From a virus, in the IMG/VR virus record IMGVR_UViG_3300040751_003304, positions 1-36,501 of that record: DNA of 36,501 nucleotides; one strand, 5' to 3'. Shown piece by piece: positions 5,564-36,501 of the stretch. The number at the start of each line of letters is the position of its first letter. The first letter of the stretch is position 1. The notes beneath the pieces were generated by a model, which was not told the DNA's origin, searched no databases, and worked only from the letters and a program-made list of their open reading frames with translations. Made by a program: the position numbers and the translations under genes.

Positions 5564-5640
5564 GCAACGGTCTTCTTTTAGCCTTCGCGCTCTGGATCGC
5601 CGCGCGGCCTCGTCGGAAAAGACGAAGAAGAGTAGAGTGA
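5560..5640 (+). CDS. 26-residue membrane micro-protein
   Basis: ATG 5560 overlaps the previous stop (ATGA) and is preceded by the strong ribosome-binding run AAGGGGAGAGG (5548-5558). The product begins MSNGLLLAFALWIAARP, a short hydrophobic helix, and ends in a highly basic tail (RRKRRRRVE), so it would insert in the inner membrane with the tail in the cytoplasm. It precedes another membrane protein gene by 23 bases. The start signals make translation likely; the role is unknown, possibly connected with lysis timing or membrane association of replication. Confidence 0.55.
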   Translation: MSNGLLLAFALWIAARPRRKRRRRVE

Positions 5641-26914: not shown

Positions 26915-29449
26915 ATGGCTATCAAGATCACAGGACCAATTGGTCAGGGTGGAGCAGGCGGCGCGGTGACTTCGGTCAACGGAGCAACCGGAGCCGTTAA
27001 CCTTTATGCAGACAACGCGACTTTAAACCTCGCTGGCGACGGGATCGTCGTCAATGGAGCGGGCGCGACGTCGACCCTCGACGTGGACAGCGGGACAACG
27101 GCGGGGAAAATCGTCAAGCTTGACGGTTCAGCTCGTCTCCCAGCGGTGGACGGATCACAGCTGACGAACCTTCCAAGCGCTCCCGTGACGAGCGTCAATG
27201 GCGCAACTGGAGCGGTCAACCTTTACGCGGACGATGCGACTCTCAATCTCGCCGGTGATGGGATCGTCGTCAGCGGAACAGGCGCGACTTCTACCCTCGA
27301 CGTGGACAGCGGAACGACAGCAAATAAGATCGTTAAGCTCGACGGGTCGGCCAGGTTGCCAGCGGTCGACGGTTCGCAATTAACGAATCTCCCAGCGGCG
27401 CCAGTGACGAGCGTCAACGGCGCGACCGGAGCGGTCAACATTTACGCCGATGATACGACGTTGAACATCGACGGAACCGGCCTAGTCTTGAGCGGAACCG
27501 GAGCGACCTCGACTCTCAACGCGGATGTCGGAACAGGGGCGAACCAGATCGTTCAGCTTGATGGGAGCTCGCGTCTCCCCGCTGTCGATGGTAGTCAGCT
27601 GACGAACCTTCCAAGCGCTCCAGTAACTTCGGTCAACGGCGCGACGGGCGCCGTGAATATCTACGCGGACGACACGACGCTAAACATCGACGGAACTGGT
27701 CTAGTCTTGAGCGGGACCGGCGCAACGTCGACTCTTAATGCGGACGTCGGGACAGGAGCGAATCAGCTCGTTCAGCTTGACGCCTCGTCTCGTCTTCCTG
27801 CTGTGGATGGCTCACAGCTGACCAACCTTCCGAGCGCTCCAGTGACGAGCGTCAACGGAGCGACCGGCGCGGTCAACATTTACGCCGATGATACTACGTT
27901 GAACATCGACGGGACTGGCCTGGTCTTATCAGGCACTGGCGCAACGTCGACTCTTAATGCGGACGTCGGAACGGGGGCGAATCAACTTGTTCAACTGGAC
28001 GCGAGCTCACGCCTTCCAGCGGTGGACGGTTCACAGCTGACCAACCTCCCTAGCGCGCCAGTGACTTCAGTCAACGGCGCAACCGGCGCGGTCAATATCT
28101 ACGCAGACGACACGACACTGAACATCGACGGGACTGGTCTGGTCTTATCAGGGACTGGCGCAACGTCGACTCTTAATGCTGACGTCGGGACGGGAGCGAA
28201 CCAGATCGTTCAACTTGACGCGAGCTCACGCCTTCCAGCGGTTGATGGTAGCCAACTGACCAACCTTCCGAGCGCTCCAGTGACGAGCGTCAACGGAGCG
28301 ACCGGCGTCGTGAATATCTACGCTGATGATACGACGTTGAACATCGACGGAACCGGCCTAGTTTTGAGCGGAACCGGAGCGACCTCGACGCTTAATGCGG
28401 ACGTCGGGACGGGCGCAAATCAGCTCGTTCAGCTTGACGCCTCGTCTCGTCTTCCCGCTGTCGATGGTAGTCAACTGACTAACCTTCCGTCGGCGCCAGT
28501 GACAAGCGTCAACGGTGCAACCGGAGCGGTTAATCTTTACGCGGACGACGCGACCTTAAATCTTGCCGGCGACGGGATCGTCGTCAGCGGAACGGGCGCG
28601 ACGTCGACCCTCGACGTGGACAGCGGAACGACAGCGAATAAGATCGTTAAGCTCGACGGCTCGGCGCGATTGCCTGCTGTCGACGGTTCACAGCTGACCA
28701 ACCTCCCAGCGGCGCCAGTGACGAGCGTCAACGGGGCAACGGGAGTCGTGAATATCTACGCCGACGATAGCACCTTGAACATCGACGGGACTGGTCTGGT
28801 TCTAAGCGGGACCGGAGCGACCTCGACGCTTAATGCGGACGTCGGGACGGGAGCGAATCAGCTAGTTCAGCTTGACGCGAGCTCGCGTCTCCCAGCGGTC
28901 GACGGCTCACAGCTGACGAACCTGCCGTCGTCTCCAGTGACAAGCGTCAACGGTGCAACCGGAGCGGTCAACATTTACGCCGACGACACGACGTTGAACA
29001 TCGACGGAACCGGCTTGACCCTTTCGGGAACTGGCGCGACCTCGACGCTCAATGTTGACGTCGGAACCGGAGCGAATCAGATAGTTCAGCTTGACGGCTC
29101 TTCTCGTCTTCCAGCGGTCGACGGCTCACAGCTGACGAACCTTCCAGGCGCTTCTCGTCCGACAGTCACCACAGACTCAAGCGGAACGAATAGCACGATC
29201 AGCAATCCAGCGGCGGGAACCCTCGAAGATATTTATCTCGTCTCAAATGGCGCGAGCGCTGTTACGATCACGCTCCCCACTGTTACCGGAAACAGCGGCT
29301 ATAAGGTCAACATCAAGCGGCTAGGTACTGCAAACGTCACGATCTCACCCGCGAGCGGGACGATCGACGGGGCGGCTTCACAGGTTCTTTCTGTCCAGTA
29401 TTCGGCCTATACGCTGACAACGGACGGAACGAACTGGCACATTATCTAG
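26915..29449 (+). CDS. Tail fibre built from ten 73-residue repeats
   Basis: An 844-residue protein: 17 residues of glycine-rich start (KITGPIGQGGAGGA), ten tandem repeats of exactly 73 residues, and a 97-residue C-terminal domain (RPTVTTDSSGTNSTISNPAA to TDGTNWHII). Each repeat begins VTSVNGATGAVN and ends RLPAVDGSQLTNLP. SVNG-TGAV motifs are common in phage fibres, where they are thought to form trimeric beta-structures. Two repeat types exist: LYAD.ATLNLAGDG (repeats 1, 2, 8) and IYADDTTLNIDGTG (3-7, 9, 10). The C-terminal domain likely ends the shaft or binds the tip proteins encoded next. Start ATG follows AAGGGGG. Confidence 0.85.
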   Translation: MAIKITGPIGQGGAGGAVTSVNGATGAVNLYADNATLNLAGDGIVVNGAGATSTLDVDSGTTAGKIVKLDGSARLPAVDGSQLTNLPSAPVTSVNGATGAVNLYADDATLNLAGDGIVVSGTGATSTLDVDSGTTANKIVKLDGSARLPAVDGSQLTNLPAAPVTSVNGATGAVNIYADDTTLNIDGTGLVLSGTGATSTLNADVGTGANQIVQLDGSSRLPAVDGSQLTNLPSAPVTSVNGATGAVNIYADDTTLNIDGTGLVLSGTGATSTLNADVGTGANQLVQLDASSRLPAVDGSQLTNLPSAPVTSVNGATGAVNIYADDTTLNIDGTGLVLSGTGATSTLNADVGTGANQLVQLDASSRLPAVDGSQLTNLPSAPVTSVNGATGAVNIYADDTTLNIDGTGLVLSGTGATSTLNADVGTGANQIVQLDASSRLPAVDGSQLTNLPSAPVTSVNGATGVVNIYADDTTLNIDGTGLVLSGTGATSTLNADVGTGANQLVQLDASSRLPAVDGSQLTNLPSAPVTSVNGATGAVNLYADDATLNLAGDGIVVSGTGATSTLDVDSGTTANKIVKLDGSARLPAVDGSQLTNLPAAPVTSVNGATGVVNIYADDSTLNIDGTGLVLSGTGATSTLNADVGTGANQLVQLDASSRLPAVDGSQLTNLPSSPVTSVNGATGAVNIYADDTTLNIDGTGLTLSGTGATSTLNVDVGTGANQIVQLDGSSRLPAVDGSQLTNLPGASRPTVTTDSSGTNSTISNPAAGTLEDIYLVSNGASAVTITLPTVTGNSGYKVNIKRLGTANVTISPASGTIDGAASQVLSVQYSAYTLTTDGTNWHII
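26966..29155 (+). repeat. Ten tandem 219-bp coding repeats
   Basis: Ten units of exactly 219 bases without a length change fill 2,190 bases. The protein is far better conserved between units than the DNA, with most differences at third codon positions. Repeats 8 and 9 reproduce the order of types seen in repeats 2 and 3, which suggests a past duplication of a block of about six units (repeats 2-7 and 8-10). Confidence 0.92.
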
Positions 29450-33503: not shown

Positions 33504-33736
33504 GATGCACTCTCCTCAATGATCTCCGCGCAAGCGAAGCAAGTCAGGTTGTTGTTAGCGCCGACCTCGAGGTCGACCGGCCAAGCGCCGACGTGATCGC
33601 AGTTATGACACTCGCCATGTACGACGACCGCGAAGTCGTCACCGGCTGGATTAAATGGGAAGTTCTGTGAAGCGGCCTCGATCGCCTCGTCGGGCATCAC
33701 CCAAGCGGGGAACGCGAAGAAAGTCTTAATGCTCAT
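33500..33736 (-). CDS. Small zinc-finger protein
   Basis: A 78-residue protein with two CxxC pairs, GECHNCDHVG (about residues 42-51) and LTCFACAEII (about 64-73), which together can bind one zinc ion in a zinc ribbon. It begins inside the end of the ribbon-helix-helix gene (11-base overlap) and its stop overlaps the next start. Zinc ribbons of this size in phages often act on nucleic acids or on host RNA polymerase; here this is inference. Confidence 0.7.
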   Translation of the reverse strand: MSIKTFFAFPAWVMPDEAIEAASQNFPFNPAGDDFAVVVHGECHNCDHVGAWPVDLEVGANNNLTCFACAEIIEESAS

Positions 33737-33896
33737 AGCGGGCGTTCTCCATCGCGATAGCAGCTCTCAAGAGCTTGCGGACAATTTGAGAGCGAGAGGT
33801 TTCCTCGCCAGCGGCGCGGCGCTTGGCCACGAAGGAGTCGAGGAGCGCGAGCGTCTCCGGATCGAAGTTGATTGAAACGAGCTTCTTGATGGCCAT
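33726..33896 (-). CDS. Ribbon-helix-helix regulator (Arc/CopG-like)
   Basis: A 56-residue protein read on the minus strand from ATG 33896, with a consensus AAAGGAGG upstream. MAIKKLVSINFDPETLALLD is the DNA-contacting strand and first helix, and RSQIVRKLLRAAIAM the second helix with the typical S-x-hydrophobic-V-R pattern. It is the first gene of the leftward operon. Such dimers usually repress their own promoter, and a 26-bp imperfect dyad lies 32 bases upstream in the divergent control region. The fold is clear. Confidence 0.85.
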   Translation of the reverse strand: MAIKKLVSINFDPETLALLDSFVAKRRAAGEETSRSQIVRKLLRAAIAMENARYEH

Positions 33897-33927
33897 CAGC
33901 GGGCCTCCTTTCTTGTTCTCAAACAGA

Positions 33928-33953
33928 TTGACTTACGCTTAACGGTATGTCAA
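33928..33953. promoter_or_regulatory. 26-bp operator-like dyad with facing -35 boxes
   Basis: The site has symmetric halves TTGAC.TAC..TT and AA..GTA.GTCAA; ten of thirteen positions pair around a TTAA centre. TTGACA on the minus strand and TTGACT on the plus strand are -35 boxes, facing each other, although the matching -10 sequences (CAATCT minus, AACAGT plus) are weak. The dyad lies between the ribbon-helix-helix gene and the initiator gene and covers ATG 33947, which therefore is unlikely to be a start codon. Confidence 0.55.
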
Positions 33954-33985
33954 CAGTAAAAGAGGACGAGATGAAAGGAGGCAGG

Positions 33986-34519
33986 ATGGCTAGTCCGCCT
34001 TACGCTCCAGTCGAGGAGCATATAAGAGGAATCCTTCAAGACGTGCGCTTGAACCCGCTAGAGCGCTGCGCAGCAATCGAGCTCTATTATCACACTGACT
34101 GGAATACTCGACGGCTCAAGTGCCGAGGAGTGATCGCCGCGCATATCAGACGCACCATCGGTCGAGGGCAGACCGCAGCGAAGAAGACCAAGAAGAAGTT
34201 GGAAGAGCTCGGCTTCATCCAGGGGGACTACTTCGACGCGTCAGCTTGGGTCCGGTCAGAAGTGACTGGGCCGAAAACAGACCGGTCCGAAAACAGACCG
34301 GTCCGAAAACAGACCGGTCCGAAAACGGACCACCCCCCGTCCGAAAACGGACCACCCCCCGTCCGAAAACAGACCACCCCCCGTCCGAAAACGGACCACA
34401 ATACTTCTCTTACTTCTCCCTCTTCTCTTTCCCTCTCAAATCCAAGTCGACCCAAACAGCGCGCGAGCCAAGAAGAGGACCGCTTCGACGACTTCATGAA
34501 CTTCCTTGAGAACTACTAA
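33986..34519 (+). CDS. Replication initiator-like protein (lambda O-like role) with winged-helix N-terminus
   Basis: From ATG 33986, preceded by AAAGGAGG, the protein has 177 residues. The N-terminal 80 residues are helical with a winged-helix pattern: LNPLERCAAIELYYHTDWNT, GVIAAHIRRTIGRGQTAAKK, then TKKKLEELGFIQGDYF. Residues 92-140 are a low-complexity linker (PKTDRSENRPVRKQT, PPSENGPP) encoded by the iteron array. The C-terminus (EEDRFDDFMNFLENY) is acidic and may contact the loader or helicase. The next genes are a DnaC-like loader and DnaB, an order equivalent to lambda O-P. It should bind the iterons and open the DNA. The initiator role is inferred from architecture and context; family identity is not proven. 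Confidence 0.68.
   Translation: MASPPYAPVEEHIRGILQDVRLNPLERCAAIELYYHTDWNTRRLKCRGVIAAHIRRTIGRGQTAAKKTKKKLEELGFIQGDYFDASAWVRSEVTGPKTDRSENRPVRKQTGPKTDHPPSENGPPPVRKQTTPRPKTDHNTSLTSPSSLSLSNPSRPKQRASQEEDRFDDFMNFLENY
34271..34397 (+). repeat. Seven iterons inside the initiator gene; candidate replication origin
   Basis: CCGAAAACRGACC occurs seven times in one direction: 34271, 34287, 34303, 34319, 34341, 34363 and 34385 (first bases). The first four are 16 bp apart, the last four 22 bp apart, the longer spacing due to inserted ACCCCCC-type tracts. Most units sit in a dyad GTCCG-AAAA-C[AG]GAC. A pyrimidine-rich, lower-G+C stretch (34398-34440) follows. The layout parallels lambda ori, whose iterons and A+T-rich segment lie inside gene O. 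Confidence 0.78.
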
Positions 34520-34530
34520 GGAGCCCGACG

Positions 34531-35373
34531 ATGAATCTGGATCTACAAAGAACACTCGACACCCTCAAAGCTCTCGCTAAGAACGCTCCGGACAATCGGC
34601 CACCGTGTCCCGCTGTGGATGGAGTAGTTCCTAATTCTCGCTTGGTCGAGCAAGTGATCAGGGGAAAGGAGATCACCACGGTCGATCTTCTCCCTAACTG
34701 CAAGAGCGACTGTATTCGCTCCGAGAACGGCCTTCACTTCAAAGCTAACCAAGGATGCGCTCGCCTCTGTCCTTGCGGGAAAGCCAACCAGCGTCTCTCC
34801 TCGATCAAGGCTATGAAGCTGCCAGTCGAGGCAGCCGAAAAGAATCACGCGAACTATGACTGGAAGATCGAAGGTCAAGAGCTCGTCGGGAAAGTTGAAT
34901 ACTTCCTCAAGGCTCTCTCCGAGGGAGAGCGTAAAGTTCTTATCCTTGTCGGCGATCCAGGGACCGGCAAGACTCACCTTCTTTATGCGATGGCCTATCT
35001 CGCGGCGATCTCTCAAGGCGGATCGATGCGGGTGAACTATATCTCCCAACCTCACTATCTCTCTAAGGTCAAGGCGGGCTTTGACGATCCGCATAAGCGG
35101 GTCGAGCGCGTCACCGGCTCAAGAGCTCTCTTCCTCGATGAGATCGGCTATGGGCGCCAGACCGACTGGGAGAAGGCAACCATCAACGAACTCCTCCACC
35201 ATGCCTGGCAATCTGGACAAGCGCTCGTCCTCGCCACTGATATCGGATGGGAGCGCTTAGGCTCTTTCCTCGATAGACGGATCAAGGACCGACTCATCGA
35301 AGGGACAGAAGGAAAGCGCTTAGTTCATCACTTCACCGGCAAGAGCCAGCGCTCGAAGGGTGTGCAGTGGTGA
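34531..35373 (+). CDS. dnaC: DnaC-like helicase loader (AAA+ ATPase)
   Basis: A 280-residue protein that should open or deliver the DnaB ring to the origin. Walker A is GDPGTGKTH (141-149) and Walker B LFLDEIG (200-206); the C-terminal part holds sensor-type residues (LVLATDIG, FLDRRIKDRL). The N-terminal 100 residues have cysteines at 57, 61, 76, 80 and 82, likely a zinc site, as in some primosome proteins. ATG 34531 follows AAGGAG (34519-34524). The stop overlaps the dnaB start (GTGA). Position between initiator and helicase fits exactly. Confidence 0.9.
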   Translation: MNLDLQRTLDTLKALAKNAPDNRPPCPAVDGVVPNSRLVEQVIRGKEITTVDLLPNCKSDCIRSENGLHFKANQGCARLCPCGKANQRLSSIKAMKLPVEAAEKNHANYDWKIEGQELVGKVEYFLKALSEGERKVLILVGDPGTGKTHLLYAMAYLAAISQGGSMRVNYISQPHYLSKVKAGFDDPHKRVERVTGSRALFLDEIGYGRQTDWEKATINELLHHAWQSGQALVLATDIGWERLGSFLDRRIKDRLIEGTEGKRLVHHFTGKSQRSKGVQW

Positions 35374-36501
35374 GCAACACTCATCAGCTAAACGCAGAGG
35401 CGGCGCTTCTCGGCGGCGCGATGGTCGACATCAAAGGCTATCTTGAGGCGCGCGCGACTCTCTCCGCCGCTGACTTTACCGACCCGCTTCATCGCCAGAT
35501 CTGGGGAGCGATCGGGGAGCTCGTCGAGAAGGGGAAGCCGACCTATGCGACCGACGTCCTCTCCCACCTTCAAAGCAAGGGCGAAGTAAATGAGGAGCGC
35601 TTTCTTCAGGTCGCGTCTCATATCCCGATTGGGACAAGCGGTCTAACTGACAAGCTCAAGACGAGCGGAACGCGGCGCCAGATCGAGGCGGCGATTCATC
35701 AGGTCGCGGGATGGTTCACCGAGGGAGACGTCGAGAACGAAGAGCTCATCGCGAAAGCTCAAGAGACCTTCCTCTCTCTCGGCGCGAGCTCACATCAAAA
35801 CCGGAACGGCCTCGAGCTCATCAGCGGACCCGTCGAAGAGGCGATCGACGATATCGAGCGGATCCAGAAGAGCGGAGAGACGACCGGCTTAAAGAGCGGG
35901 ATCTCCTCCCTCGACAAATCCATCGGCGGCTTCAAGCCAGGCGCGCTCTATATCCTCGCCGCGCGTCCCGCGATGGGGAAGACTGCGCTCGCGCTCAACA
36001 TCGCAAGCGCCGTTTCTCTCAAGGAGCACGTCGCCTTCTTCAGCTTGGAGATGCCAAAGAAGCAGATAGGCCAGCGCCTTCTCTCCTCTTACTCTGGCGT
36101 CTCCGTCCAGCGCATCGACGAGGCGACGGTCAAGACCGACGAGATCCCCCACCTCGTCAGCGCGGCGGAGTCGATCAAGGATAACAAGCTCTGGGTAGAT
36201 GACAGTGCGGGATCGAGCGTCAGCTATATCAAGGGTCAACTTCGACTCCTCCAGAGTAAACAGATCGAGATCGGGATGGTCGTCATCGACTATCTCCAGC
36301 TCATGGGAGGGAGCAAGAAGGGCGCGCGCCGATCTAGAGAGCAAGAGGTCTCCGAGATCTCGCGATCGCTTAAGGAGCTCGCGAAGGACTTCGACTGTCC
36401 AGTGATCTGCTTAAGTCAGCTCAATCGCGGCGTCGAGAGTCGACCTAACAAGCGACCTCTCCTCTCTGATCTGCGCGAGAGCGGATCAATCGAGCAAGAT
36501 G
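35370..36501 (+). CDS. dnaB: Replicative DNA helicase, DnaB family (5' part; cut by the window end)
   Basis: The gene begins at GTG 35370, inside the loader stop. Residues 1-100 are the DnaB N-terminal helical domain (QLNAEAALLGGAMVDIKGYL, DPLHRQIWGAIGEL, ATDVLSHLQSKGEV), the site of primase and loader contacts. A linker follows and then the RecA-like core with AARPAMGKT and MVVIDYLQLM. It ends open at the window edge and continues, across the circle, at base 692. The protein differs from the 1-885 copy by only three residues in the shared part. Confidence 0.97.
   Translation, partial: MSNTHQLNAEAALLGGAMVDIKGYLEARATLSAADFTDPLHRQIWGAIGELVEKGKPTYATDVLSHLQSKGEVNEERFLQVASHIPIGTSGLTDKLKTSGTRRQIEAAIHQVAGWFTEGDVENEELIAKAQETFLSLGASSHQNRNGLELISGPVEEAIDDIERIQKSGETTGLKSGISSLDKSIGGFKPGALYILAARPAMGKTALALNIASAVSLKEHVAFFSLEMPKKQIGQRLLSSYSGVSVQRIDEATVKTDEIPHLVSAAESIKDNKLWVDDSAGSSVSYIKGQLRLLQSKQIEIGMVVIDYLQLMGGSKKGARRSREQEVSEISRSLKELAKDFDCPVICLSQLNRGVESRPNKRPLLSDLRESGSIEQD
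35811..36501. repeat. Terminal repeat, right copy (partner 1-691)
   Basis: Second copy of the 691-base terminal similarity, about 92 percent identical, with no insertions or deletions. The differences from the left copy are confined to positions equivalent to 111-564 of the left end. Confidence 0.9.

Follow-up and report, generated by a model that had tools for sequence, protein, structure and literature searches.

The start site for genome copying in a bacterial virus seems to be written as a set of repeated binding words inside the gene of the protein that presumably binds them. The window, that is, the whole stretch of DNA analysed here, is the entire virus record IMGVR_UViG_3300040751_003304 (36,501 bases), and within it positions 34271-34449 very probably form a theta-replication origin that lies inside its own initiator gene and is of the lambda O/ori working type, at which the initiator would bind, the DNA would melt and the helicase loader would be contacted. 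The evidence consists of an iteron array, the frames in which it is read, its conservation at the DNA level, the order of the neighbouring genes, the instability of an adjoining tract and, in near relatives, the replacement of the repeated word upstream of a conserved tail. An earlier sequence-only reading of the window had likewise placed an iteron-type origin in the initiator gene; the array, the adjoining tract and the order of the loader and DnaB genes bear this out, whereas its contrast with lambda, drawn from the dyad in the repeat, does not hold and the GC skew is weakly favourable.

Genome layout and the initiator gene

The first and last 691 bases of the record match each other in 640 of 693 alignment columns (92% identity), and the overlap has long exact runs at either end. 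Because the ends (1-691 and 35811-36501) overlap in this way, the record closes to about 35.8 kb (a circle of 35,808 bases), and the genome is probably circular, joined through two strain haplotypes. The terminal overlap falls inside dnaB. The initiator gene is the first of a replication cluster on the + strand (Table 1), and the loader and helicase genes predicted to follow it were found by Pfam and PHROG as DnaC/IstB-like and DnaB genes. The loader belongs to the IstB_IS21/DnaC families; the lambda P family was absent from the best 25 of 29 Pfam matches and was not named among 24 PHROG matches. The ATG at 33986, which follows AAAGGAGG at 33974-33981, is a likelier start of the initiator than the opening of the ORF at 33947, and the divergent ribbon-helix-helix protein is a possible regulator of the initiator promoter. 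Elsewhere in the record, a long ORF at 26915-29449 encodes near-identical repeats of ~73 residues (VTSVNGATGAVN...) and is tail-fibre-like by impression.

Table 1. Replication region of the window, with positions in the record
Feature	Position	Strand	Basis or remark
Divergent ribbon-helix-helix protein	33726..33896	-	RHH_1 0.0033 (below cut-off); phrog_4738 transcriptional repressor 3e-7
Initiator gene	33986..34519 (ORF open from 33947)	+	N-terminal winged-helix-like domain, repeat-encoded linker, C-terminal helix; phrog_270 'replication initiation protein' E 4e-4; AlphaFold2
Iterons 1-4, 16-bp spacing (~1.5 helical turns)	34271..34331	+	Word search; GACCGGTC palindromes at three junctions
Iterons 4-7, 22-bp spacing (~2.1 helical turns)	34319..34397	+	Adjoin the melting tract
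Pyrimidine-rich low-stability tract, proposed unwinding element	34398..34449	+	Stability percentile, pyrimidine maximum, conservation in L011/L015
C-terminal helix, residues 176-189	34472..34513	+	AlphaFold2; proposed loader/helicase contact
DnaC/IstB-like helicase loader	34531..35373	+	Pfam IstB_IS21 6e-10; PHROG phrog_50 5e-28
DnaB-like replicative helicase	35367..36501, on into 1-885 across the circle junction	+	Pfam DnaB_C 2e-74

Pfam returned no family for the initiator up to E 1 (neither RepA_N nor HTH_36/PF13730), and the phage record collection held no match to it at E up to 1. In an AlphaFold2 model built from a 35-row alignment (mean pLDDT 68), ten-residue blocks score 75-94 at residues 21-100, a helical N domain, and 48-59 at residues 101-170, the linker, which is followed by the C-terminal helix. 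Foldseek gave weak matches to this model (best E 0.24, none under 0.2), winged-helix proteins among them. With VIA-align the best Z was 7.3, all values staying under 8 and tying with many unrelated winged helices; the DnaD N domains, at Z 6.6 (DnaD_N 2vn2) and 6.0, share in these ties, and 4pt7 ('Structure of initiator') and 5kbj ('Structure of Rep-DNA complex'), which we take to be RepA_N proteins, both reach Z 5.7, also under 8. At the level of a predicted model, the structure matches support the winged-helix fold class only.

A DNA-level iteron array

The word CCGAAAACRGACC occurs in seven exact copies between 34271 and 34397, all in the same direction on the + strand and starting at 34271, 34287, 34303, 34319, 34341, 34363 and 34385, with spacings of 16, 16, 16, 22, 22 and 22 bp; the whole 36,501-base record contains no further exact copy. 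Allowing up to two mismatches, the record holds 8 matches against 1.99 (sd 1.34) by chance, a number that none of 100 shuffles reached. Exact search and shuffles thus confirm the seven same-direction copies and two spacing classes first noticed from the sequence alone. The array takes up residues 109-151 of the 190-residue ORF, central in the gene, and it lies after the N domain in the low-confidence region of the model, in keeping with the claim that the iterons sit within the linker of an initiator-like gene.

Iterons have the form GTCCG-AAAA-CRGAC. The internal dyad GTCCG-AAAA-CGGAC that had been ascribed to the repeat is perfect (5-4-5) in copies 4, 5 and 7 only (3/7); in the other four, copies 1-3 and 6, it is imperfect, with CAGAC and, in copy 1, additionally GGCCG. 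The 16-bp spacing also creates GACCGGTC palindromes at 34280, 34296 and 34312, an alternative dyad register that is missing from the 22-bp block.

When the gene's own synonymous codons were permuted with the protein kept, no 13-mer reached more than 4 copies in 300 trials, and when codons were resampled the maximum was 3 in 300 trials, compared with the observed 7; none of the 600 synonymous variants reached seven iteron copies. Both spacings are 1 mod 3, and successive iterons are read in frames 0, 1, 2, 0, 1, 2 and 0, yielding PKTD, SENR/SENG and VRKQT in turn. Since the copies go beyond synonymous shuffles and the frame changes from copy to copy, we conclude that the repeat is a feature of the DNA from which the linker peptide results, and that the iterons are not accounted for by repetition in the protein. 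That the linker instead grew by slippage as a low-complexity protein repeat, with the DNA repeat as its by-product, would suit the low confidence of this region in the AlphaFold2 model, but we regard it as exceedingly improbable, given that a spacing of 1 mod 3 makes three peptides from one DNA word, that synonymous shuffles do not reproduce the repeat, and that frames and conservation in other loci (below) mostly point the same way.

The adjoining tract and GC skew

Directly 3' of the array, positions 34404-34443 contain 36 pyrimidines in 40 bases, the record maximum for that length (on the 50-base scale, 41 against a record maximum of 43), and 34399-34448 is the least stable 50-mer of the interval 33.9-35.4 kb and lies at the 99.5th percentile of the record. 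The pyrimidine-rich, easily melted tract that had been described beside the array is therefore present, with the pyrimidine maximum over 40 bases and the lowest-stability 50-mer of the region, and it ranks first on the 50-bp scale only: over 100 bp it is surpassed in instability by 33904-34003, a segment that spans the gene start and the DNA before it. In a wider set of loci, the least stable 30-mer within 90 bp 3' of the array was less stable than that within 90 bp 5' in 27 of 35 cases (Wilcoxon 2.6e-5). The cumulative GC skew of the closed circle, for which a minimum at the origin had been proposed as a check, reaches its lowest point at 345, beyond the junction and ~1.8 kb downstream, which is weakly favourable, but also has a further trough (~16 kb).

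These positions bear on whether the repeats are instead an operator array, used by the initiator or some other regulator to control its own operon, with replication starting elsewhere. The gene that holds the sites does open the + strand replication cluster, and repeats near the rep promoter of pSK639 have been suggested to serve autoregulation (PMC5703833). However, the array is situated ~285-411 bp inside the initiator gene, away from the promoter, it adjoins the least stable 50-mer of the region and is conserved together with it, and the in-gene arrays of such form that have been studied experimentally, those of lambda and pSK41, are origins (PMC7466680, PMC5703833). We thus consider an operator array unlikely and an origin the better reading.

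Conservation and word replacement in near relatives

Three contigs (L008-L010) encode an initiator identical to that of the window, and in a fourth, L011, it is 94% identical as protein. Between L011 and the window, none of the 131 alignment columns 375-505 differ compared with 39 of 399 in the flanks (24/320 and 15/79; Fisher 2e-5), a contrast that persists when the changed first iterons are included (columns 321-505; Fisher 5.5e-4), and the tract at 34398-34449 is unchanged. L015, the only diverged relative with the same word that the searches found for the window family, has a loader gene 69% identical in DNA (583/843); it keeps 51 of 53 bases in the last iterons and 49 of 52 in the tract, but only 35 of 70 in the gene tail. 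In L011 and L015 alike, the DNA of iterons and tract is kept where the flanks have diverged, as had been proposed for a comparison of related phages, and together with the three-frame reading this upholds the suggestion that the linker is a by-product of selection on DNA; it also argues against a repeat maintained as protein.

Two further contigs, L032 and L033, have a tail and a loader almost those of L015 and different words. L032 carries a CTCCAAAAAYGGAC-like word and keeps 50 of 52 tract bases, and L033 has TGTCACTACTGACA twice at 18 bp, a tract matching at 34 of 51 bases and a few residues before the array that are unlike the window's; both contigs start inside the gene, and their winged helices can be compared in part only. 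These near relatives have kept the tail and exchanged the word upstream of it. The contigs L015, L032 and L033 (first ~200 bases) all start within the initiator gene, either at the array or shortly before it, which looks like assembly breaking off at the repeats. A search for relatives through the loader alignment returned the same 7 contigs and nothing further.

The same word in other initiators

Scanning viral contigs by pattern for two copies of the word yielded 16 stretches, five of which belong to the window family (L012, L015, L020, L021 and L027). The other 11 comprise one further family (L013, L017, L019, L022 and L023), its distant branch (L018 and L024), and L014, L016, L025 and L026. 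In all 11 the word lies in an ORF just after the N-terminal domain, and the six searched against PHROG (L013, L018, L014, L016, L025 and L026) all match replication initiation, O-like or DnaD-like proteins. All 16 stretches have AAAA on the coding strand; on our reading, this direction encodes hydrophilic residues in all three frames and the opposite direction phenylalanine in each. The frame changes between copies in the window family, the L013 family, L014 and L016, and is kept in L018 and L024 (21 bp), L025 (24 bp) and L026 (15 bp). A search for the MTYxLNIDQ family gave 7 loci, none of them new. In prokaryote genomes, a scan for two copies produced 27 stretches, with L057 (Aromatoleum) as the sole initiator of this kind (frames judged by eye); the other 26 were rejected as simple repeats, PKTD-type protein repeats kept in frame, or other sequence. 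Two genome contigs, L045 (Bacteroidales, 1275-1304) and L060 (Tannerella, 5601-5633), each hold two perfect GTCCGAAAACGGAC dyads, in neither case within a clear initiator ORF.

The same core word occurs in initiators whose recognition helices look dissimilar by eye, so that the word by itself does not tell which protein reads it. Because the loci were searched by that word, convergence may be enough to explain why unlike helices share it. A common host or phage factor other than the initiator, reading GTCCGAAAACGGAC, would likewise account for a word shared by unrelated initiators, and the dissimilar helices beside it fit this; we nevertheless hold such a factor to be very unlikely, as the sharing came from searching for the word itself, as the word tracks helix type in a larger set (see below) and as it is replaced in L033 where tail and loader are kept. 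The initiator remains the presumed reader.

Spacing order in related initiators

An alignment of L057 and L014, seeds first found by the word, was used to collect the best 80 of 101 related loci, whose 75 ORFs of at least 130 aa were reduced to 53 below 80% identity. Counting a repeated 12-mer as significant if equalled by at most 5 of 100 synonymous shuffles, 33 of these 53 initiators carry in-gene repeated words and 20 show no significant repeat by this measure; the 33 include L082, the contig of seed L014, L057 being the other seed. Among their 71 spacings below 40 bp, 60 are not multiples of 3, and the commonest are 22 (25 cases), 23 (17) and 17 (9).

A second set was chosen by protein, with a tblastn search of the L077 N domain that gave 91 phage records, from which 12 of the 40 listed, differing in organism, were taken. 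All 12 named phages carry in-gene repeated words; in 11 the repeats were equalled by 0/60 synonymous shuffles, and those of AP22 by 1/60 at one mismatch and 0/60 at two. Of their 36 spacings in the range 15-25 bp, 21 by our own tally are not divisible by 3. The frame is kept in phiV10 and phiNP and in part in Edno5 and Vibrio phage P2; these multiples of 3, like those of L018, L025 and L026, are what a protein-level repeat would give, and the counts from the survey and the named phages speak against one. The repeats look to ignore the reading frame rather than to avoid it.

We divided the spacings into a short class (15-18 bp) and a long class (21-24 bp), with limits set after seeing the survey peaks and counts based on simple repeat calling. 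Where a locus has both, short precedes long in 12 of 13 (kinship ignored), namely in the window, L057, L071, L076, L077, L079, L081, L082, L083, L091, L135 and L144, the last counted though it fails the shuffle test (0.38). These 12 have four unlike word cores (the CCnAAAACGG type and those of L091, L135 and L144). L077 (17, 17, 22, 22, 22) has an N domain 100% identical to that of Burkholderia phage Bcep176. L018, the one case counted with the reverse order, rests on a false cluster from automatic repeat refinement, its two real copies lying 21 bp apart. If 25 bp is taken as long, our recount gives 12 of 14 short-first, with L078 joining and L057 (25, 17, 17, 22, 23) and L018 against; under looser repeat calling, 25 precedes 17 in L069 and L070 as well. 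Both classes occur in 6 of the 12 named phages, and the short one comes first in all six: phiV10 (18, 18, 24, 24), Acinetobacter phage MD-2021a (17, 17, 22, 22), Edno5 (17, 18, 24, 24), AP22 (17, 22, 24), Pae_CF127a (18, 22, 22, 22) and Vibrio phage P2 (17, 17, 24, 24, 24). Arrays of a single class are many, for example L108 and L013 (long) and L016, L026 and phiNP (short).

Recognition helices, words and a second tandem word

In a table of 65 initiators (53 + 12, the seed contig L082 included and the window left out), at least two copies of CCnAAAACGG, one mismatch allowed, were present in 21 of 24 with the motif [DN]xKT[VILM] and in 1 of 41 without it (Fisher 7e-13, confounded by shared ancestry). 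Judged from sequence, the type of recognition helix thus seems to track the word, ancestry being a confounder. The window's own helix falls outside the motif by eye, and its word has the CCnAAAACGG core.

A second tandem word, GAACC[AG]TCA, recurs mostly in 11-12 bp steps in the survey loci L068-L147 (e.g. L081, L082 and L108). With one mismatch allowed, at least two copies are found in 24 of 53 initiators and in 0 of 53 for its reverse, complement or reverse complement, compared with a mean of 5.7 (maximum 11) of 53 in 60 rounds of synonymous shuffling. Its copies favour one frame (51 of 80, EPS; 29 in the other two), and 48 of 56 lie 2-61 bp after the last iteron. At least two copies occur in 2 of the 12 named phages; the window has none. 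It is possibly a repeat of the unwinding element; a literal literature search for GAACCRTCA returned, among the matches listed, titles on other subjects.

Discussion

In the mechanism that we propose, the winged-helix domain of the initiator would bind the seven inverted-repeat iterons, the resulting nucleoprotein array would open the pyrimidine-rich tract beside it, and the C-terminal helix would recruit the DnaC-like loader and the DnaB encoded directly downstream. The linker peptide would be mostly a by-product of translation, with the DNA word kept and read in three frames.

We tentatively suggest, as a possibility that we rate somewhat short of even, that phage initiator genes share a two-part origin plan, in which a block of 15-18 bp steps (~1.5-1.7 turns) precedes a block of 21-24 bp steps (~2.0-2.3 turns) that faces the unwinding side; the word would be free to change with the recognition helix of the winged helix, as a readable protein-DNA code, with order and spacing kept and the frame largely ignored. 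What lowers our rating is that in L057, and under looser calling in L069 and L070, the short block comes after a 25-bp step. Searches of the open-licence literature listed no description of such a two-class order. Each block would have a task of its own: one might, for instance, serve opposite-face anchoring or copy control, the other same-face wrapping and melting. In each such gene the presumed reader comes together with its word. The genomes of many phages may therefore contain winged-helix domains already paired with their binding sites, from which the recognition code of this class of initiators could be worked out by sequence analysis. Uncultured phages could have their origins located to the base, the purpose of the two spacing classes would become testable in a simple in vitro system, and low-complexity linkers of such initiators can be DNA signals and not protein features.

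The principle of an iteron origin embedded in its initiator is already known, because the lambda iterons lie in gene O and the linker encoded by the pSK41 origin is dispensable. The lambda O gene with ori-lambda (NC_001416) resembles the window in its same-direction iterons in the linker of the initiator gene, the adjoining meltable tract and the downstream loader gene. Lambda iterons, taken from the annotation because automatic repeat refinement missed them (ATCCCTCAAAACGAGGGA and variants), are arm-A tract-arm inverted repeats like those of the window, with AAAA in 3 of the 4 annotated, and they too are read in three frames (phases 0, 2, 2, 1). According to a study of lambdoid phages, each iteron is an inverted repeat, and silent changes in iteron 1 of a minireplicon left no transformants (PMC7466680). 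The dyad therefore fails as the contrast to lambda for which it had been put forward. Of the claim that two spacing classes set the window apart, the difference from lambda stands (four iterons at 20, 24 and 23 bp; seven at 16, 16, 16, 22, 22 and 22 in the window), but such classes recur in other phages. The lambda melting tract is A-rich (AT-rich) and the window's pyrimidine-rich; unlike lambda, the window phage pairs a DnaC/IstB-like loader with its own DnaB, and its initiator resembles lambda O-like PHROGs only weakly (phrog_678 and 391, E 0.047 and 0.2).

Also similar in layout are phage proteins of the HTH_36 or 'replication initiation' type, among them L014 and L057, which match PF13730 (HTH_36), and their relatives in phiV10, AP22, Edno5 and others: they have repeated DNA words in the linker and short-then-long spacing as in the window, whereas their word differs outside the CCnAAAACGG core, their recognition helix differs and the window protein lacks an HTH_36 match. 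In the RepA_N plasmid pSK41, according to PMC5703833, the origin is central in rep and the linker it encodes is dispensable, the N domain is a winged helix of DnaD type and the A+T-rich part of the Rep box matters. The window initiator, by contrast, has no RepA_N match and no DnaD-like C domain (a short helix only), and it belongs to a phage with its own loader and helicase. As in pSK41 rep/ori, the window array is central in its gene, where we infer an origin role. In the hybrid pPR9, the N domain and origin region were exchanged as a block (PMC5703833), an exchange that resembles the replacement of the word seen among L015, L032 and L033.
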